From contig CAJPUR010000012.1 in the NCBI GenBank assembly GCA_905381055.1, forward strand, positions 1 through 64,000: a stretch of 64,000 bases of DNA, written 5' to 3'. This document shows positions 2,241 through 24,654 of this stretch, in pieces. The number at the start of each line of letters is the position of its first letter. Position 1 is the first letter of the stretch. This stretch comes from an uncultured Flavobacteriaceae bacterium. GTDB lineage: Bacteria; Bacteroidota; Bacteroidia; Flavobacteriales; Flavobacteriaceae. Position numbers and translations under genes: made by a program. The notes under the pieces were generated by a model. That model was not told the origin of the DNA. It ran no database searches and saw nothing but the letters and a program-made list of their open reading frames with translations.

Positions 2241-2324
2241 CGGAGAGACTGGGATTCGAACCCAGGCATCGCTTACACGATGACAGATTAGCAATCTGCT
2301 CCATTACCACTCTGGCACCTCTCC
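2241..2324 (-). tRNA. tRNA-Ser(GCU)
   Basis: The minus strand folds as a class II tRNA. Acceptor arm GGAGAGG pairs with TCTCTCC (one G-T pair). The anticodon stem GCAGA/TCTGT encloses the loop TTGCTAA with anticodon GCT, which reads serine AGC/AGU codons. A long variable arm (CATCG...CGATG) is present, as expected for tRNA-Ser, followed by a T arm containing GGTTCGAATCC. The 3' CCA is not encoded, so it must be added after transcription. A promoter with good -33 and -7 elements lies immediately upstream. Confidence 0.95.
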
Positions 2325-9289: not shown

Positions 9290-11824
9290 ATGGATGATAA
9301 TTTTTCAGCTCGTGTTAAAGATGTCATCTCCTTTAGTAAAGAGGAGGCCCTAAGGTTGGGGCATGACTATATTGGAACTGAGCATTTAATGTTAGGTATA
9401 CTTAGAGATGGTGGAGGAAAGGCTATTACAATTCTAAATAATATTGATATTGACTTAGAAAACTTAAGAAAGAAAGTTGAAATATTAAACCCTTCAATTA
9501 TTCAGAATTCTAATCTTGAAAATTCTAAAAATAATCTTCACCTAACTAGACAAGCCGAAAGAGCTCTGAAAACTACATTTCTAGAGGCAAAACTTTTTCA
9601 GAGTGATCTAATTAATACTGTTCATTTACTCCTATGTATTTTGAGAAATGAAAATGATCCAACAACTAAGTTACTTTTGAATTTAAATATCAGTTATGAT
9701 ATTGTTAAAGAGCAATTCAAATTAATGTTAACTAACGATTCTGATTATATAGACTTTCAGAATTCTTCATCTTTCCCTGAAGAAAAAGAAGATGATTCAT
9801 CTTCAGAAAAAGAAAATCCTTTTACTCAAAAAACTTCTGCATCAAAAAGTAAAAAATCTAAAACTCCTGTACTCGACAATTTTGGAAGAGATATTACTCT
9901 TCTTGCTGAAAACAACAAATTAGATCCGGTTGTTGGTAGAGAAAAAGAAATACAAAGAGTTTCGCAGATTTTAAGTAGACGTAAAAAAAATAATCCTCTA
10001 CTTATTGGTGAACCTGGTGTCGGTAAGTCTGCAATAGCAGAAGGCCTTGCTTTAAGAATAGTTCAAAAAAAGGTTTCTAGAATTTTATATGGTAAAAGAG
10101 TTGTTTCTCTTGATTTAGCTAGCCTTGTAGCTGGAACAAAATATAGAGGGCAATTTGAAGAAAGAATGAAAGCTGTAATGAATGAACTTGAAAAGAATGA
10201 TAACATCATACTTTTCATAGACGAAATACATACTATTGTTGGAGCTGGGGGGGCAACAGGAAGTCTTGACGCTTCAAATATGTTTAAGCCTGCACTTGCA
10301 AGAGGTGAAATTCAATGTATAGGTGCAACCACTTTGGATGAATACAGGCAAAATATTGAAAAAGATGGTGCACTAGAAAGAAGATTTCAAAAAATAATAG
10401 TTGAACAAACATCTGTAGAAGAAACCTATGAAATTCTAAAAAATATTAAAGATAAATATGAAAATCATCATAATGTAATTTACACTGATGAGGCCTTGAA
10501 ATCCTGTGTTGACTTAACCTACAGATATATTTCAGACCGCTTTTTACCTGACAAGGCTATTGATGCTCTTGATGAAGCAGGTTCAAGGGTTCATATTAAC
10601 AATATGAATGTACCTGATAACATTGTAAAACTCGAAGAAAATCTCGAAAAAATCAAAGATTTAAAAAATAGTGTTGTAAAAAAACAAAAATACGAAGAAG
10701 CTGCCAAGTTAAGAGATGACGAAAAGAAAATAGAAAGAGATTTAATTTTAGCTCAAAAAAAATGGGATGAAGAATCAAAATTGAATAAAATTCAGGTTGA
10801 TGAAACTCAAATTGCTGACGTAGTTTCTATGATGAGTAATATCCCTGTAAATAAAATTGTAAAAAAAGAAAAAAACAGGCTATCTAAGCTTGCTGAAACA
10901 ATTGGATCAAAATTAATTGGGCAAAAAAGTGCTGTTCAAAAGGTTGTCAAAGCAATTCAAAGAAACAGAGCAGGGTTAAAAGTTGTTGAAAAGCCAATTG
11001 GTTCATTTATTTTTTTAGGTCAAACTGGTGTTGGTAAAACTCAACTAGCTAAGATTCTTGCCTCTGAAATATTCGAGTCTGAAGAAAATCTGATAAGAAT
11101 TGATATGAGTGAATATATGGAGAAATTTGCAGTCTCAAGACTAATAGGATCTCCTCCTGGCTATGTTGGATATGAGGAAGGTGGTCAACTTAGTGAAAAA
11201 GTCAGATTAAAACCTTACTCGGTTATTCTTCTTGATGAAGTTGAAAAAGCACATCCTGATATTTTTAATATGCTTTTACAAGTTTTAGATGATGGATACT
11301 TAACTGACAGTTCAGGAAGAAAAATTAATTTCCAAAACACTATAATCATCATGACATCAAATATTGGTGCCAGGCAAATTAAAGATTTTGGAACTGGAGT
11401 TGGTTTTTCAACCTCTTCCCAAAAAGCTCAAACTCAGGATTTAGAAAAAAATATTATTGAAAATTCTTTGAAAAAAACTTTTGCTCCAGAATTTTTAAAT
11501 AGAATTGATGATATCGTTATTTTTAACTCTCTTGATAAAAAAGATATTATCAAGATAGTTGATATTGAATTAAATAAATTAGAAGAAAGAGTCAATAAAC
11601 TTGGTTACTCTATCGAAATATCAAAAAAGTCTAAAGAATTTGTTTGTGATAAAGGTTTTGATAAAAAATATGGTGCTCGCCCATTATCAAGAGCAATACA
11701 AAAGTATATTGAGGATTTAATTGCAGAGGAAATAGTTAATAATAAGATAAATGAAGGTGATTCCATATATATTGATGTAAATAAAAACTCTGATTTTTTA
11801 ACATTAGTAAAGAAAAATAAATAA
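9290..11824 (+). CDS. clpC: ClpC-type AAA+ unfoldase (HSP100)
   Basis: ATP-dependent unfoldase that feeds substrates to the ClpP protease. The N-terminal Clp-N repeats (about 1-145) are followed by the first AAA+ module with Walker A GEPGVGKS (240-247) and Walker B LFIDEIHT. A UVR-type middle segment (KYEEAAKLRDDEKK, around 465-478) separates it from the second AAA+ module with Walker A GQTGVGKT (577-584) and arginine finger region FLNRIDD. I chose ATG 9290 because MDDNFSARVKDVI is the usual ClpC N-terminus; an in-frame TTG two codons earlier is unlikely. A Lys/Ser-rich linker (about 165-190) joins the N-domain to AAA-1. The gene stands alone on the plus strand. Confidence 0.96.
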   Translation: MDDNFSARVKDVISFSKEEALRLGHDYIGTEHLMLGILRDGGGKAITILNNIDIDLENLRKKVEILNPSIIQNSNLENSKNNLHLTRQAERALKTTFLEAKLFQSDLINTVHLLLCILRNENDPTTKLLLNLNISYDIVKEQFKLMLTNDSDYIDFQNSSSFPEEKEDDSSSEKENPFTQKTSASKSKKSKTPVLDNFGRDITLLAENNKLDPVVGREKEIQRVSQILSRRKKNNPLLIGEPGVGKSAIAEGLALRIVQKKVSRILYGKRVVSLDLASLVAGTKYRGQFEERMKAVMNELEKNDNIILFIDEIHTIVGAGGATGSLDASNMFKPALARGEIQCIGATTLDEYRQNIEKDGALERRFQKIIVEQTSVEETYEILKNIKDKYENHHNVIYTDEALKSCVDLTYRYISDRFLPDKAIDALDEAGSRVHINNMNVPDNIVKLEENLEKIKDLKNSVVKKQKYEEAAKLRDDEKKIERDLILAQKKWDEESKLNKIQVDETQIADVVSMMSNIPVNKIVKKEKNRLSKLAETIGSKLIGQKSAVQKVVKAIQRNRAGLKVVEKPIGSFIFLGQTGVGKTQLAKILASEIFESEENLIRIDMSEYMEKFAVSRLIGSPPGYVGYEEGGQLSEKVRLKPYSVILLDEVEKAHPDIFNMLLQVLDDGYLTDSSGRKINFQNTIIIMTSNIGARQIKDFGTGVGFSTSSQKAQTQDLEKNIIENSLKKTFAPEFLNRIDDIVIFNSLDKKDIIKIVDIELNKLEERVNKLGYSIEISKKSKEFVCDKGFDKKYGARPLSRAIQKYIEDLIAEEIVNNKINEGDSIYIDVNKNSDFLTLVKKNK

Positions 11825-11857
11825 AAATATATTATAAACCTACTTAAATTAGTTTCT

Positions 11858-11865
11858 TAACTTTG
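11858..11865 (+). promoter_or_regulatory. -7 promoter element of the threonine operon
   Basis: TAACTTTG followed by CA matches TAnnTTTG. With the 6-7 nt spacing seen at rnpB, transcription should start near 11872, about 20 nt before the leader ORF and about 230 nt before thrA. A clear -33 TTG is not visible. Confidence 0.5.
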
Positions 11866-11891
11866 CATATCAAATTATTTATTTTATTTAA

Positions 11892-11969
11892 ATGAAAATA
11901 ATATCTTTTTCATATCATAATTCATTAGTTAACCTCTCCACTATATCTAATTCACATACTACCCTGTAA
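11892..11969 (+). CDS. Putative threonine/isoleucine leader peptide (25 aa)
   Basis: Short ORF beginning MKIISFSYH and ending STISNSHTTL before TAA. It starts about 20 nt downstream of the inferred transcription start and lies wholly in the 5' leader of thrABC. Ile occurs at positions 3, 4 and 18 and Thr at 17, 23 and 24, and Ser is frequent. The Thr pair falls two codons before the stop, where a stalled ribosome would cover the first arm of the hairpin at 11961-11975. This is the arrangement expected of a transcription-attenuation leader sensing charged tRNA-Thr or tRNA-Ile. No homologue is known to me, and Thr content is modest, so the assignment is an inference from position, size and codons. 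Confidence 0.45.
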   Translation: MKIISFSYHNSLVNLSTISNSHTTL

Positions 11970-12015
11970 TGGGGTTACAAAATTATATTCAACAATAAAA
12001 TATTTTGAATTTTAT
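11961..12015 (+). promoter_or_regulatory. Competing hairpins in the thr leader
   Basis: ACCC (11961-11964) can pair with GGGT (11972-11975), while TGTAA (11965-11969) can pair with TTACA (11975-11979). The two hairpins share bases and exclude each other, and both begin at the end of the leader ORF. Downstream, ATAAAAT (11995-12001) pairs with ATTTTAT (12009-12015). No GC-rich stem with a T run is present, so a classical intrinsic terminator is not seen. Confidence 0.35.
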
Positions 12016-12061
12016 ATTCAATGTAAATAAAATAACCTTCTTTTATTAGAGTTTAATTTAT

Positions 12062-12085
12062 ATAAAGTAACTTCGTTTACTTTAT
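12062..12085 (+). promoter_or_regulatory. Perfect 9-bp hairpin just upstream of thrA
   Basis: ATAAAGTAA (12062-12070) and TTACTTTAT (12077-12085) are perfect reverse complements around the six-base loop CTTCGT. The stem ends 15 nt before the thrA ATG. It has no T tract after it, so it may affect initiation or mRNA stability rather than act as a terminator. Confidence 0.45.
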
Positions 12086-12100
12086 TCAAAGAAAAAAAAT

Positions 12101-14545
12101 ATGAAAGTTTTAAAATTTGGCGGTACATCTGTAGCAAATAATTATTCAATTAATAAAGTTATTAAAATTGTAAATAATCAATCCGATAAACTAGTGGTTG
12201 TTGTTTCTGCGCTTGGAGGAATAACTGACTTGTTAGATACGATTATGAATAAAGCATTAAATAATGATAAGTCATTTTTCTTAGAGATGGAAGTTATTGA
12301 AAAAAGACATCTTGAATTAATTAAAAAATCAATAAAAATTGTAAATCAAAGTAAAATAATAAGTTTTTTAAAAAAAGAGCTAAATAAACTTGAAACCACT
12401 ATTGATGGAGTTTTAGTTTTAAATGAATTAACTTCAAAAACAATTTCTAAAATTTTAAGTTTTGGTGAAGTACTCTCAAGTAAAATTATTTCTGAAATTT
12501 TCAAAGAAAAAAAATTAGATGTTCAACTAGTTGACTCTAGAAATATAATTACAACAATTCAAAAGAATAAAAAAGAAATTGTTGATTGGAATAAAACAGA
12601 AAAAAAAACTAAATCAATTTTTAATTCTTTAAATGCTAAAATTATTATTCTTCCAGGTTTTATTTCATCAAATTCTAATGGATATATAACTACTCTTGGA
12701 AGAGGTGGATCAGATTATACTGCTTCAATTATTGCAAATATATTAGATGCTAAAGTTCTTGAAATATGGACAGATGTAAGTGGCATGTATACAGCAAATC
12801 CTAATATTGTATCCCAAGCAAATCCTATAGATAGATTAACTTATTTTGAAGCTATGGAGCTTTCTCATTTTGGAGCGAAAGTTATTTTTCCTCCAACTCT
12901 GCAACCCCTTGTTGAAAAGAATATACCAGTTAAAATAAAAAATACATTTAAACCTGAAGATAAGGGAACTCTTATCGATTCAAATTCCTCTCCAAGAAAC
13001 AAACAAGTCATAAAAGGAATAAGTCATATTGACAATATTTCTTTAATTAGTCTTGAGGGTAGTGGAATGATTGGTATCCCTGGGTTTTCAAAAAGGCTAT
13101 TTGAAGTTCTACTTAAAGAAAATATAAATGTTATAATGATAACTCAAGCCTCTTCAGAACAATCAATATGTATTGGAGTAAAAAGTTTTGATTCAGAAAT
13201 TGCAAAAAGTGCAATTGACAATGAATTTGAATTTGAAATTAGCCAAAAAAAGGTTTCCCCAACAACTCTTGAAAATGGTTTAGTTAATATTGCTATGGTT
13301 GGTGAAAAAATGAAAGATCATCAAGGAATCAGTGGAAAAATGTTTAGTTCATTGGGTAATAACAATGTAAATATAAGAGCCATTGCACAAGGTGCATCAG
13401 AAAGAAATATTTCAATAATTATAAAAAAGAAAGATTGTAAAAAGGCCCTTAATACATTACATGAAAGATTTTTTGAAGAAAATATAAAGGAATTGAATCT
13501 ATTTATTATAGGTGTTGGAAATGTTGGCAGTAAGCTATTAGAGCAAATTGAGAATCAAACTGATTATCTAAAGGAAAATTTAAAATTAAGAATTAGAGTT
13601 ATTTCCATTTCAAATTCAAAAAAAATGATATTGGGAACTAATTCTATAACAATTAAAAATTGGAAAAAAACTTTAAAAAATGGAATTAAAACTAATATTG
13701 AAAAATTCTATAAACATGCAAAGAAATTAAACTACCGAAATAGTATTTTTGTTGACAATACTGCTAGTAACTTAATCTCAATGGAATATGAAAAATACTT
13801 AAATTCAAATATAGGTGTAGTAACATGTAATAAAATTGCATGTGCGGATACTTTAAAAAATTATTTGAATTTAAAGAATTTATCAAGGAAATTCGGTAGT
13901 CCCTTTTTATTTGAAACTAATGTTGGAGCTGGGCTTCCAATTATTGATACTTTAAACAACCTAATTGCATCAGGCGATCAAATAAATGAAATTCAAGCAG
14001 TTTTATCAGGGAGTTTAAACTTCATTTTTAATAATTTTAATATTAAAAGTACTTTTCATGAAATAGTTCAAAGAGCTCAAAATGAAGGTTATACTGAACC
14101 AGATCCAAAAATTGATCTAAGTGGAATTGATGTTGCAAGAAAAATATTAATTCTTGCTAGAGAAAGTGGTTTAAAAATTGAGTTAGATGATATAAAAATA
14201 TCTTCTTTTCTTCCCAAAAAATCATTAACTACTTCAAATAATAAAGAATTCTACGATTCATTAATTGAGAATGAAAATCACTTTAACAAACTATTAAAAA
14301 AAGCTAATGAAAATGATTCAAAATTAAAATATGTTGCAAATCTTAAAAATGGAAAAGCTAAAGTAGGTCTTGAAGAAATACCAAAAGGTCATAATTTTTA
14401 TGATCTTGAAGGTAGTGATAATATTGTTTTGTTTTATACAAATAGATACTCAAAACAACCGCTAATTGTAAAGGGAGCTGGAGCTGGAGCTGAAGTTACG
14501 GCTTCTGGGATATTTGCTGATATTATTAGAATTGGAAAACGATAA
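12101..14545 (+). CDS. thrA: Bifunctional aspartokinase / homoserine dehydrogenase
   Basis: Catalyses the first step (aspartate phosphorylation) and third step (aspartate-semialdehyde reduction) of threonine synthesis. The aspartokinase domain begins with KFGGTS (5-10). Two ACT regulatory units follow (about 310-460; SLEGSGMIGIPG and VNIAMVGEKMKD), the sites of feedback inhibition in this family. The homoserine dehydrogenase domain starts at about residue 468 with the dinucleotide-binding IIGVGNVGSK and includes ETNVGAGLPII and EPDPKIDLSG. At 814 aa it has the ThrA/MetL architecture. It is the first gene of thrABC, 2 bp ahead of thrB, behind a 276-nt leader with promoter and structure, which suggests transcriptional or translational control. 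Confidence 0.96.
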   Translation: MKVLKFGGTSVANNYSINKVIKIVNNQSDKLVVVVSALGGITDLLDTIMNKALNNDKSFFLEMEVIEKRHLELIKKSIKIVNQSKIISFLKKELNKLETTIDGVLVLNELTSKTISKILSFGEVLSSKIISEIFKEKKLDVQLVDSRNIITTIQKNKKEIVDWNKTEKKTKSIFNSLNAKIIILPGFISSNSNGYITTLGRGGSDYTASIIANILDAKVLEIWTDVSGMYTANPNIVSQANPIDRLTYFEAMELSHFGAKVIFPPTLQPLVEKNIPVKIKNTFKPEDKGTLIDSNSSPRNKQVIKGISHIDNISLISLEGSGMIGIPGFSKRLFEVLLKENINVIMITQASSEQSICIGVKSFDSEIAKSAIDNEFEFEISQKKVSPTTLENGLVNIAMVGEKMKDHQGISGKMFSSLGNNNVNIRAIAQGASERNISIIIKKKDCKKALNTLHERFFEENIKELNLFIIGVGNVGSKLLEQIENQTDYLKENLKLRIRVISISNSKKMILGTNSITIKNWKKTLKNGIKTNIEKFYKHAKKLNYRNSIFVDNTASNLISMEYEKYLNSNIGVVTCNKIACADTLKNYLNLKNLSRKFGSPFLFETNVGAGLPIIDTLNNLIASGDQINEIQAVLSGSLNFIFNNFNIKSTFHEIVQRAQNEGYTEPDPKIDLSGIDVARKILILARESGLKIELDDIKISSFLPKKSLTTSNNKEFYDSLIENENHFNKLLKKANENDSKLKYVANLKNGKAKVGLEEIPKGHNFYDLEGSDNIVLFYTNRYSKQPLIVKGAGAGAEVTASGIFADIIRIGKR

Positions 14546-14547
14546 TA

Positions 14548-15477
14548 ATGAACGAAGTTAAGATTTTTTGTCCAGCGAGTGTAGCAAATGTATCATGCGG
14601 ATTTGATATATTAGGATTTTGTCTTGATAAAATAGGAGACGAAATGATAATCAGAAAAACTTCTAAGCCAGGAATTAATATCACTAAAATTGTAGGGGAA
14701 AATTTACCTTATGAATCAAAAAAAAATGTTGCCGGTGTTTCTGGTATTTCATTGCTAAATGAACTTTCTACAGATTTTGGTTTTGAAATAGAAATTTATA
14801 AAGGAATTAAGTCTGGAAGTGGAATAGGAAGTAGTGCAGCAAGCTCAGCAGGGGCTGTATTTGGAATTAATGAACTTTTAGGAAAACCATTTTCTAGAAA
14901 AGAATTGATTAAATTTGCCATGAAAGGTGAAGAATTAGCTAGCGGAAGTATTCATGCTGATAATGTTGCTCCAGTTCTTATGGGGGGGTTTACTCTAGTA
15001 AGAGACATTAATTCACTTGATATAATAAGTCTTCCATTCCCAAAAAAGCTTTTTGCGTCAATAATTCATCCTGAAATTGAATTAAAAACTTCTGATTCTA
15101 GATCTGTTTTAAAACAAAAAGTTCCATTGAAAAAAGCAATTCAACAATCTGCAAATATTGCATCCTTAATCAGTGGATTATACACAGAAGACTATAAACT
15201 CATAAGTAGATCTCTTATTGATGTATTAGTTGAGCCATACAGATCTGATCTAATTCCTGCCTTTAATGATTTAAAAAAAACTTCAAGTAATAATGGATCA
15301 CTTGGTACCGGAATATCAGGATCAGGACCATCAGTTTTTGCACTATCAAAAGGTGAAAAAACTGCAAAATCTGTAACAAGTGAAATGGGTAAAGTTTTAG
15401 TTCCCTTAAATCTAAAATTTCATTCATATACATCAAAAATCAATTCAACAGGTATTAAATTAATTAGTTCAAGATGA
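14548..15477 (+). CDS. thrB: Homoserine kinase
   Basis: GHMP-family kinase converting homoserine to O-phosphohomoserine with ATP. The phosphate-binding loop is GSGIGSSAASSAG (90-102), and a conserved N-terminal motif is ASVANVSCGFD (10-20). The C-terminal GHMP motif GTGISGSGPSVFAL is intact. Length 309 aa is typical. It sits 2 bp after thrA, and its stop overlaps the thrC start as ATGA, indicating translational coupling. Confidence 0.97.
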   Translation: MNEVKIFCPASVANVSCGFDILGFCLDKIGDEMIIRKTSKPGINITKIVGENLPYESKKNVAGVSGISLLNELSTDFGFEIEIYKGIKSGSGIGSSAASSAGAVFGINELLGKPFSRKELIKFAMKGEELASGSIHADNVAPVLMGGFTLVRDINSLDIISLPFPKKLFASIIHPEIELKTSDSRSVLKQKVPLKKAIQQSANIASLISGLYTEDYKLISRSLIDVLVEPYRSDLIPAFNDLKKTSSNNGSLGTGISGSGPSVFALSKGEKTAKSVTSEMGKVLVPLNLKFHSYTSKINSTGIKLISSR

Positions 15478-16769
15478 TATATGCCAGTCTAAATAATAAC
15501 TCGCCTAGTGTCACATTCAAAGATGCTGTGATCAGAGGTTTAGCTCCTGACAAGGGTTTGTATTTTCCTAAAAAAATACCTAAACTTTCTAAATCATTTT
15601 TTGATAATATTGAAAGTCTAAATGAAAATGAAATTGCCTATGAAGCTATTAAGCATTATGTGAATTTTGATATTTCAAAAAATGAACTTAAAAAAATTAT
15701 TTCTGAAACTTTATCATTTAACTTTCCAATAATTAAAATCAGTGAAAAAATTTATTCAATGGAACTATATCAGGGTCCTACGCTTGCTTTTAAAGATGTT
15801 GGAGCAAGATTCATGGCAAGATGCTTGGGATATTTTAATAAAAAAGAAAGATCTAATAAAATTACAGTTTTAGTTGCAACATCAGGTGATACAGGAGGAG
15901 CAGTTGCTGATGGATTTCTTGATGTAGATGGAATTAACGTTATTATTCTATATCCAAGTAAAAAAGTTAGTGAAATCCAAGAAAAACAACTTACAACATT
16001 AGGGAAAAATATATCAGCATTAGAGGTTAATGGGACTTTTGACGATTGTCAAGAGATGGTTAAAAAATCATTTTTAGATAAAGACATAATTAAAAAAAAT
16101 AAACTTACCTCAGCAAATTCAATTAATATTGGTAGATGGTTACCTCAAATGTTTTATTATTTTTTTGCATACAAATACTTAAAAAAAACAAATAAACCTA
16201 TAGTCATATCAGTTCCAAGTGGAAATTTTGGAAACATATGTGCAGGACTATTATCTAAGAAAATGGGGCTTCCAATTGACCATTTTATAGCTTCTACCAA
16301 TATCAATGATGTAGTCCCAAGATATTTGAAAACCAATAAATATTGTCCAGAACCTTCAATTCAAACTATTTCAAATGCAATGGATGTTGGAAATCCAAGT
16401 AATTTTGTAAGGATTGCAAAAATATTTGACAATAATTTTAAAAAAATAAAATCTAGTCTCTCAGGTTTTCAATTTAGTGATAATCAGACAAAAGAAGCAA
16501 TAAAAGAAATATATGAAAAATCGAAGTTTATTTCTGATCCTCATGGTGCAGTAGGTTATTTAGGACTAAAAAGTTATTTAAAAATCAACAATGACAAATT
16601 AGGACTTTTCATGGGGACTGCACATCCAGTAAAGTTCATTGATGTTGTTGAAAAAACGCTAGATATGAAATTAAAATTACCTGAAAAAATAAAAACAATT
16701 ATTAAAAAAGAAAAAAAAAGCACTAAAATCAATAACTATAAAGAATTAAAAAATTATCTAATTGAATAA
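15474..16769 (+). CDS. thrC: Threonine synthase
   Basis: PLP-dependent lyase that converts O-phosphohomoserine to threonine, the last step of the pathway. The Schiff-base lysine is K107 in GPTLAFKDVGARF. The phosphate-binding and active-site motifs ATSGDTGGAVADG and SVPSGNFGNICAG are present. At 431 aa it matches the E. coli-type enzyme. It overlaps thrB by 4 nt and ends 3 bp before the convergent M24 peptidase gene, so the operon ends here. Confidence 0.96.
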   Translation: MIYASLNNNSPSVTFKDAVIRGLAPDKGLYFPKKIPKLSKSFFDNIESLNENEIAYEAIKHYVNFDISKNELKKIISETLSFNFPIIKISEKIYSMELYQGPTLAFKDVGARFMARCLGYFNKKERSNKITVLVATSGDTGGAVADGFLDVDGINVIILYPSKKVSEIQEKQLTTLGKNISALEVNGTFDDCQEMVKKSFLDKDIIKKNKLTSANSINIGRWLPQMFYYFFAYKYLKKTNKPIVISVPSGNFGNICAGLLSKKMGLPIDHFIASTNINDVVPRYLKTNKYCPEPSIQTISNAMDVGNPSNFVRIAKIFDNNFKKIKSSLSGFQFSDNQTKEAIKEIYEKSKFISDPHGAVGYLGLKSYLKINNDKLGLFMGTAHPVKFIDVVEKTLDMKLKLPEKIKTIIKKEKKSTKINNYKELKNYLIE

Positions 16770-23820: not shown

Positions 23821-24387
23821 ATGAGAATAATTTCTGGTTTTCATAAAGGAAGAAAAATTAATGCTCCCAGAAACCTAATTGCTAGACCAACTACTGATAA
23901 AGCAAAAGAAGCAATTTTTAATATTCTGAATAATCATTATTTATGGAAAAATATTTCAGTTTTAGAATTATTTTCAGGAACAGGAAACATTAGTTTTGAA
24001 TTTGCTTCAAGAGGAGTAACAAAAATATTATTAATAGAAAATAATTATCGATGCATTGAACATATAAAAAAAACAATGAAAAGATTAAATTTCCAGTTCA
24101 ATGCAATTAAGGCTAATGTTTTTAAATTTTTATCTACAAAAATAGCATATTCATTCGATATTATTTTTGCAGATCCACCTTATGAACTAAATAAAACAAA
24201 ATATATTGAAATTATTGATTTAGTATTTAATAATAAATTTATAAATGACAATGGTGTTTTAATTATAGAACATAACGGAAATTTCACTTTCAAAGATCAC
24301 AATAAATGGGAATTTGATAAAAAATACGGAAATAATTATTTTAGTTTTTTTAAAAAAAAAGCAGGCAATAAGCCGGATTCTGTCTAG
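23821..24387 (+). CDS. rsmD: 16S rRNA (guanine(966)-N2)-methyltransferase
   Basis: SAM-dependent methyltransferase modifying G966 of 16S rRNA. The N-terminal RIISGFHKGRKI and the RPTTDKAKEAIFNIL motif are typical. The SAM-binding loop is LELFSGTGNISFE (48-60), and the catalytic DPPY motif is at 118-121. Family proteins usually end close to the FSFF motif (here FSFFKKK). This one runs on for eight more codons (AGNKPDSV) and stops at 24385-24387. Those last codons are the antisense of the 3' end of the RNase P RNA gene, so the tail is probably set by the neighbouring RNA rather than by protein function. Confidence 0.93.
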   Translation: MRIISGFHKGRKINAPRNLIARPTTDKAKEAIFNILNNHYLWKNISVLELFSGTGNISFEFASRGVTKILLIENNYRCIEHIKKTMKRLNFQFNAIKANVFKFLSTKIAYSFDIIFADPPYELNKTKYIEIIDLVFNNKFINDNGVLIIEHNGNFTFKDHNKWEFDKKYGNNYFSFFKKKAGNKPDSV

Positions 24388-24648
24388 CCCTATCATTTAT
24401 CTAGGCTTTTAATTACTTAAAAGCTCAAACCGCCTACCCTTTTACTTTGAGTGGACAACTCTCAAGCGTAAATATACTTGGCGTTTCACCGTATAGAGTT
24501 TACATGATTTCACTACAGCTTAACCTGTACATACTTTCTGTTGCACTATTCCTATTCAAAAAATGAACGACGGGTGTTACCCGCTATACTGTCCTATGGT
24601 GTCCGGACTTTCCTCTTTTAAAAATAAAAGCGATAGGATAGCCTGCTT
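24359..24648 (-). ncRNA. rnpB: RNase P RNA
   Basis: Catalytic RNA of RNase P, which trims tRNA 5' ends. On the minus strand the conserved elements appear in order: GAGGAAAGTCCGGAC (24615-24601), GGGTAACACCCG, GTGCAACAGAAAGTA (24546-24532), GGTGAAACGCC (24490-24480), and ACAGAATCCGGCTTA (24383-24369). P1 is formed by AAGCAGGC at the 5' end and GCCTGCTT at the 3' end. A T tract follows the 3' P1 strand directly and can serve as the terminator. The 5' end at 24648 agrees with a -7 element six nucleotides upstream. About 290 nt is compact for a type A RNA. The 3' end overlaps the rsmD stop region. Confidence 0.95.
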
Positions 24649-24654
24649 AAAAAA

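Follow-up and report, generated by a model that had tools for sequence, protein, structure and literature searches.

The window, by which we mean the whole 64,000-nucleotide stretch of DNA that was analysed, is part of contig C12 of a 1.73 Mb genome in 34 contigs from an uncultured Flavobacteriaceae bacterium. Within it, a Clp ATPase gene ends at position 11824 and thrA begins at 12101, leaving a 276-nt gap (11825-12100) upstream of a thrABC operon whose first gene, thrA, is presumed to be under leader control (Table 1). The name clpC comes from an initial annotation, made from the sequence alone; none of the listed NCBIfam models gives the Clp protein a score that reaches its cut-off. Elsewhere in the window, Rfam matches mark a tRNA (2241-2324, minus strand) and a class A RNase P RNA (24354-24649, minus strand).

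Table 1 Features of the thrABC operon and of the region upstream of it
Feature	Positions	Strand	Support
Predicted promoter −7 box TAACTTTG of the leader transcript, Bacteroidota TAnnTTTG type	11858..11865	+	motif match
Leader ORF, 25 codons, MKIISFSYHNSLVNLSTISNSHTTL, stop TAA at 11967-11969	11892..11969	+	equivalents in 76/92 thrA upstreams, window included
Thr-Thr codons ACT ACC at the leader end; ACC opens the 5' arm of hairpin A	11958..11963	+	
Hairpin A (ACCC/GGGT), leader stop codon in the loop	11961..11975	+	
AU-rich element TTATATTC, corresponding to UAUAU..(U/C)CG, which follows hairpin A in the family	11983..11990	+	
Hairpin B, A/U-rich, TTGAAT-TTTAT-ATTCAA	12005..12021	+	
Perfect 9-bp hairpin, ending 15 nt upstream of thrA	12062..12085	+	
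thrA, bifunctional aspartate kinase/homoserine dehydrogenase I	12101..14545	+	NCBIfam NF006959, 1008.6 bits, cut-off 726
thrB, homoserine kinase	14548..15477	+	TIGR00191 and NF002288, both above cut-off
thrC, threonine synthase	15474..16769	+	TIGR00260, above cut-off

The initial annotation had proposed a leader-peptide attenuator in this gap, and all of the parts that it described are present in 11825-12100 where it had placed them. Among dinucleotide shuffles of the gap, 115 of 500 contained an ATG ORF of 20–60 codons, and 112 of 1000 a perfect stem of at least 9 bp; a GC-bearing stem like ACCC/GGGT arose in 9 of 500. The folding energy of 11872-12115 is unremarkable (z −1.65, with 12 of 200 shuffles equally good). 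By these shuffle counts the ACCC/GGGT stem alone is unusual in the window, and the other parts depend on comparison. Weak when judged from the window alone, the reading of the gap before thrABC as a real leader-peptide regulatory region is settled through sequence comparison.

The leader across Flavobacteriaceae

Searches with the ThrA protein gave a match in three of four genomes of the genus, and in 146 of 149 Flavobacteriaceae genomes at E ≤ 0.001, a count that includes other aspartokinases. The ThrA proteins of the two genus mates (L006 and L007) are 70% and 68% identical to that of the window. Three samples of thrA upstreams were compared: i) a main sample of 92 from Flavobacteriaceae (L005-L007, L011-L099), ii) a held-out sample of 20 (L176-L195), among the least similar thrA in the family list, and iii) a class-drawn sample of 20, one of which, L143, comes from Flavobacteriaceae itself.

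A script found the combination of a promoter box, a Thr/Ile-rich ATG ORF of 18–41 codons and a C-run/G-run hairpin A in 76 of the 92 main upstreams, after one of its 77 picks, L014, had been removed as spurious. The ORF keeps its Thr and Ile codons in relatives, a check that the initial annotation had proposed. Much of Flavobacteriaceae has such a Thr/Ile leader, preceded by a promoter box and with a hairpin where the ORF stops. Since the selection script scored Thr/Ile content, stem strength and promoter, the 76/92 count is biased towards the idea, and the held-out rate is lower. A fixed, stricter rule, drawn up once the 92 had been examined, accepted 66 of the 92 main, 8 of the 20 held-out and 4 of the 20 class-drawn upstreams (L143 being one of the four), and none of the controls (0/39 hisG/ilvD upstreams, 0/1120 shuffles and 0/112 reverse complements). 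Four further held-out upstreams (L178, L186, L189, L192) carry the arrangement by eye and fail the fixed rule, and hairpin A lies at the leader stop in six of the 20 class-drawn upstreams (L143, L144, L148, L149, L160, L162; by eye or by rule). There is no leader in L066, L093, L179, L181 and L195, where thrA immediately follows another gene; the genes ahead of these leaderless thrA have similar-looking products, and the one tested (L195) matched threonine ammonia-lyase, IlvA. By eye, a promoter-like box lies near thrA itself in L177, and a looser one in L080 and L091.

The strict TAnnTTTG box occurs 8–60 nt upstream of the leader ATG in 70 of the 76 leaders, against a shuffled mean of 5.3, and a −7 motif of this type is named for F. 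psychrophilum (PMC9723704). From its position in the window, the leader transcript would start at about 11870-11873. A leader-peptide attenuator calls for a promoter of its own, which the predicted box would supply in 70 of the 76 leaders and in the window, and for an ORF rich in codons for the product of the pathway, which is found in the family and is weak in the window. Over the 76 leaders, Thr makes up 33% of the last 15 in-frame codons, versus 1.4% and 0.7% in the two shifted frames, and Ile 15%. Every one of them has an in-frame ACC (Thr) codon within the 5' arm of hairpin A, and the last base of the leader stop falls in a range from 7 nt upstream to 17 nt downstream of the point where the hairpin A stem ends. 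The window's own leader is Thr-poor, with 3 Thr codons in 25 against a family mean of 19.9%; 11 of the 76 leaders have a lower share.

A covariance model, R1, trained on 20 Flavobacterium-like thr leaders and searched against 30 genomes (E up to 1), gave 12 matches in 11 genomes. Eight lie upstream of thrA (E 4e-14 to 0.71), four of them training sequences, and the model recovered the thr leader of G017, outside the training set, at E 8.6e-7; the other four matches lie elsewhere in the genomes, all at E ≥ 0.156. R1 is narrow: it had no match in 19 of the 30 genomes, missed the window's own leader, and detected no second operon of the same design in the 30 genomes. In the window's own genome, the pattern ACCC-N5-GGGGT occurs in one unrelated place, and a control pattern in two.

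The two hairpins and the spacer

The pairing of both hairpins was compared with that of arms swapped between genomes, a test that does not remove relatedness; native arms pair better than swapped ones for hairpin A (z −6.3, n=76) and for hairpin B (z −9.7, n=76). Hairpin A is nearly invariant across the 20 Flavobacterium-like sequences, so that their alignment says little about it. RNAalifold recovers both hairpins from these 20 sequences, with four pairs of hairpin B showing changes on both sides. Counted over both helices jointly, there are 14 cells with two-sided changes versus 3.5 in shuffles, and the covariation score is 0.206 versus 0.101, a value that none of 500 shuffles attained; as for pairs with two-sided changes, 57 of 500 shuffles had at least as many (4). 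From a mixed alignment of 69 sequences RNAalifold returned almost nothing (−0.86 kcal/mol), presumably because spacing varies. In 59 of the 76 leaders, the stretch 10–62 nt past hairpin A yields a best local hairpin that exceeds the average for shuffled versions of that stretch. The AT hairpin that the initial annotation had noted occupies the position of hairpin B, and in Flavobacterium-like relatives this hairpin has compensatory changes; within the genus it was undetected in L006 and weak and displaced in L007.

Two other structures of the initial annotation find no support. It had read the ACCC/GGGT and TGTAA/TTACA stems as mutually exclusive hairpins that form a switch; by eye, the TGTAA (11965-11969)/TTACA (11975-11979) stem is lost in both aligned genus mates, and the 3' arm of hairpin A pairs with downstream RNA no better than swapped controls do. 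The perfect 9-bp hairpin, which had been counted as part of the attenuator, is at chance level (112/1000 shuffles) and absent by eye in the two genus mates, and probably lies outside the regulatory system.

Between the two hairpins, an AU-rich element recurs. ATAT is found within 40 nt downstream of hairpin A in 68 of the 76 leaders (shuffled mean 32.0), and TCCGT or TTC(A/G)G in the spacer of 47 of 76 (shuffled mean 4.7). The window lacks the CG portion of this element. A YAYAW motif lies 5–20 nt downstream of hairpin A in 56 of 76, at varying distance. The spacer from the leader stop to thrA has a family median of about 85 nt and measures 125 nt in the window.

Signals between the leader and thrA

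Two features define a classical attenuator: i) a terminator with a U-tract, here before thrA, and ii) an anti-terminator pairing that excludes it. A recognisable terminator is missing. The scan found no T-tract terminator in 11700-12200 of the window, as the initial annotation had remarked, and the same holds for 73 of the 76 such leaders; a single script, looking for a stem followed by a U-tract, detected one downstream of hairpin A and ahead of thrA in 3 of 76 thr leaders (and in 3 of 380 shuffles), and upstream of hisG in 19 of 19 cases, the window's own genome (L142) included. Nor was an anti-terminator pairing found: between the 3' arm of hairpin A and the spacer, native sequences pair more weakly than swapped ones (z +2.5), the wrong direction for such an interaction.

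The his leaders form a set of their own. L142, which lies upstream of hisG on contig C13 of the window's genome, and L124-L141 look by eye like classical his attenuators with several His codons, and terminators of the AACCCGTTTGA...CAAACGGGTTTTTT type stand in all 19 hisG upstreams. Upstream of ilvD, L119 and L103 have, by eye, possible Ile/Val-rich leader peptides followed by U-tract terminators, and several further ilvD upstreams have a CCTGTATC...GATACAGG terminator.

Terminators do occur among thr leaders of the class. Hairpin A has a U-rich tract after it in the relatives L017, L055 and L078 as well as in L148 of the class-drawn sample, and the script marked terminator-like sites in 6 of the 20 class-drawn thrA upstreams (L148, L153, L154, L157, L158, L162), that of L162 being weak and further downstream. 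A Thr/Ile leader with a strong U-tract hairpin is found in the Bacteroidia upstreams L153, L154 and L157 (by script) and L156 (by eye), and L191, from the Flavobacteriaceae genome G079, is by eye a classical thr leader with a AACCTTTC...GAAAGGTTTTTTTTT terminator, in contrast to the terminator-less form. From these classical leaders, the thr operon appears to be leader-attenuated elsewhere in the class, and it seems that the class attenuates this operon in two styles, the window having the style without a recognisable terminator.

Long-range pairing between leader and spacer gave P 0.0008 for the whole leader; for sub-regions over all sequences the values were P 0.28, 0.039 and 0.088, and two pairing sub-regions gave P 0.016 and 0.036 outside the Flavobacterium-like set. 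Because the sub-region signals are weak or absent and the helices fall in differing places, we do not claim long-range pairing. A match of ACGGAC at the leader start in some genera with GUCCGU in the spacer looked promising by eye and is not general. Among the candidates examined in these leaders, we found no pairing that couples ribosome position to downstream structure.

The C/G ratio of the spacer is 1.97 immediately past hairpin A and 3.41 over its final 40 nt. In controls it is lower: 0.97 for the 11 thrA upstreams that have no leader, 0.84 before ilvD, and 0.42 before and 1.18 after the his terminators. The leader ORF has a C/G of 1.74 itself, so the C skew is not specific to the spacer, and the skew of the window's spacer is mild (11 C versus 7 G, 1.57). 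Over the last 95–120 nt upstream of thrA, five terminator-bearing thr leaders have C/G of 0.61–1.21; twelve other hairpin A-style leaders have 1.0–6.0 over 80–130 nt, L162 (1.0) and L183 (1.15) among them. The conserved hairpin B sits inside the C-rich spacer. The window's own genome has a rho family match above cut-off at C12:113450-115042; a shorter rho family match at C31:5839-6891 (a 355 aa open frame) is either a second gene or an assembly duplicate. Given the C-over-G spacer and the rho gene in the genome, we infer, tentatively, that Rho-dependent termination is the leading candidate for the output step.

A model for thrABC control and its alternatives

On balance, we favour a model in which thrABC is under an attenuator where a ribosome reads threonine, and perhaps isoleucine, and where Rho is the leading candidate for the off-step. 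A transcript from near 11871 would carry the leader ORF with Thr among its final codons. With charged tRNA-Thr scarce, the ribosome would stall at the Thr codons on or just before hairpin A and hold this hairpin open, and transcription would continue into thrA. With threonine plentiful, the ribosome would reach the stop codon in or beside hairpin A and depart; hairpins A and B would then form in the untranslated spacer, and transcription would then end upstream of thrA, with Rho as the leading candidate for the terminating factor. The geometry of the leader suggests both outcomes, since hairpin A overlaps and directly follows the Thr codons and either contains the stop or is closely followed by it, such that a stalled ribosome would open hairpin A and a finished one would free it. 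Threonine sensing through leader translation very probably operates in the family. The sequences show the anatomy and its conservation, the in-frame tie between Thr codon and hairpin, and the lack of a recognisable intrinsic terminator, whereas translation, stalling, the direction of the response and, above all, the Rho step are inferred.

The main rival to Rho is RNA processing or polymerase pausing at the AU-rich element. Hairpin A and this element would make a pause or endonuclease site between the two hairpins, ribosome position would decide whether the site is used, and hairpin B would protect the thrABC mRNA at the 5' end left by processing. The conserved AU-rich element does sit between the two hairpins, and conservation extends to hairpin B, even though this is generally without a U-tract after it and an anti-partner was not found; the YAYAW motif, however, stands 5–20 nt after hairpin A in only 56 of 76 leaders and at varying distance, and we consider this alternative rather unlikely. 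Quite improbable is a classical attenuator whose intrinsic terminator the scans overlooked, with hairpin A as a weak terminator. The U-rich tracts after hairpin A in L017, L055, L078 and class-drawn L148 would fit it, as would terminator-like sites, marked by script in 6 of the 20 class-drawn upstreams and seen by eye in L156 and L191; against it stand the 73 of 76 leaders without a site between hairpin A and thrA, versus 19 of 19 his leaders with one, and the lack of a site in the window. Translational attenuation, an option that the initial annotation had raised, would have the leader structure hide the thrA start unless a ribosome stalls. In F. johnsoniae, mRNA structure modulates how translation starts (PMC6847099), and the 9-bp hairpin lies 15 nt upstream of the window's thrA; this hairpin is not conserved in the two genus mates, and the leader has no effect on the predicted openness of thrA positions −20 to +5, which is 0.554 with the leader, 0.548 without it and 0.538 with shuffled leaders (72 of 76 leaders, the four with spacers over 130 nt being excluded). 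With the thrA start equally open in each case, sequestration of the start finds no support and we regard this alternative as highly improbable.

A further explanation concerns the genus, and is compatible with the preceding ones, which concern the family: the leader in the window's genus could be a decaying remnant without function. Thr codons are few in its three members (3/25, 5/29 and 2/23), hairpin B was not found in one genus mate and is weak in the other, and R1 misses the window's leader. Against decay, the window and L006 share the hairpin A block ACTACCCTGTAATGGGGTTA without a difference and L007 retains part of it, while the surrounding region has diverged, and the leaders of all three members end Thr-Thr-Leu-stop. 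This retention amid diverged flanks argues that hairpin A and its two Thr codons are under selection in the genus, as appears to be the case from the three sequences. We therefore consider decay unlikely, and threonine sensing is likely still at work in the window's genus.

The favoured model can be set beside known leaders. In E. coli, thrL is a short Thr/Ile-rich leader ahead of thrABC whose translation reports charged tRNA. The window's short Thr/Ile leader also precedes thrABC, and its translation should likewise report charged tRNA; unlike thrL, the window form is without a detected U-tract terminator or anti-terminator pairing and has its hairpin on the last Thr codon and the stop. The Rfam Thr_leader family gave no match in the window at gathering score; with the threshold relaxed to E 5, it also matched none of eight loci, made up of the window's own and seven from relatives. 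E. coli tnaC senses free tryptophan at its stop codon and exerts Rho-dependent leader control. If the Rho reading is right, leader translation would in both cases decide Rho termination in an untranslated spacer; unlike in tnaC, the conserved parts of the thr form are Thr codons and a hairpin at the stop, and the role of Rho is putative. The flavobacterial his leaders (L124-L142) share with the thr form the organism family and, by eye, a short leader with several codons for the product, and differ in their intrinsic terminator (19/19, versus 3/76 thr leaders). The classical Bacteroidia thr leaders L153, L154, L156 and L157, together with L191, have a Thr/Ile leader ahead of thrA as well and, unlike the window form, a strong U-tract hairpin after it. 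We regard a broader reading as plausible, though short of probable: Bacteroidia would possess a separate type of threonine attenuator whose off-step is no intrinsic terminator. A hairpin at the stop codon that includes the final Thr codon would act together with the AU-rich element and hairpin B, by way of Rho, RNA processing or polymerase pausing, whereas in those genomes textbook terminators serve the his leaders.

Flavobacterial attenuation by leader peptides has been noted in the literature before; the thr form without a terminator would be a novel version of it. A comparative attenuator study of 2004 by Vitreschak and others may cover Bacteroidetes as well. A 5' element of hisG is named in PMC9723704, in whose main text the word threonine does not occur, and short ORFs reminiscent of leader peptides are described for Bacteroides thetaiotaomicron (PMC7366714). 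Bacteroidota mRNAs are without Shine-Dalgarno sequences (PMC6847099). An attenuator survey (PMC2965389) starts from Rho-independent terminators and is therefore expected to miss the terminator-less thr form; neither 'Bacteroid' nor 'threonine' occurs in its main text. Literature searches on Bacteroidota attenuation, Rho and F. johnsoniae profiling brought up no title or abstract opening on such a thr leader, and Table S7 of PMC9723704 may list one.

Little experimental work on attenuation in Bacteroidota was found in the literature. If the favoured model is true, a threonine-sensing leader without the terminator of the his type would mean that two off-steps coexist in one family. The thr leader would also offer a compact, conserved target in culturable Flavobacterium for asking whether Rho or another factor reads leader translation.
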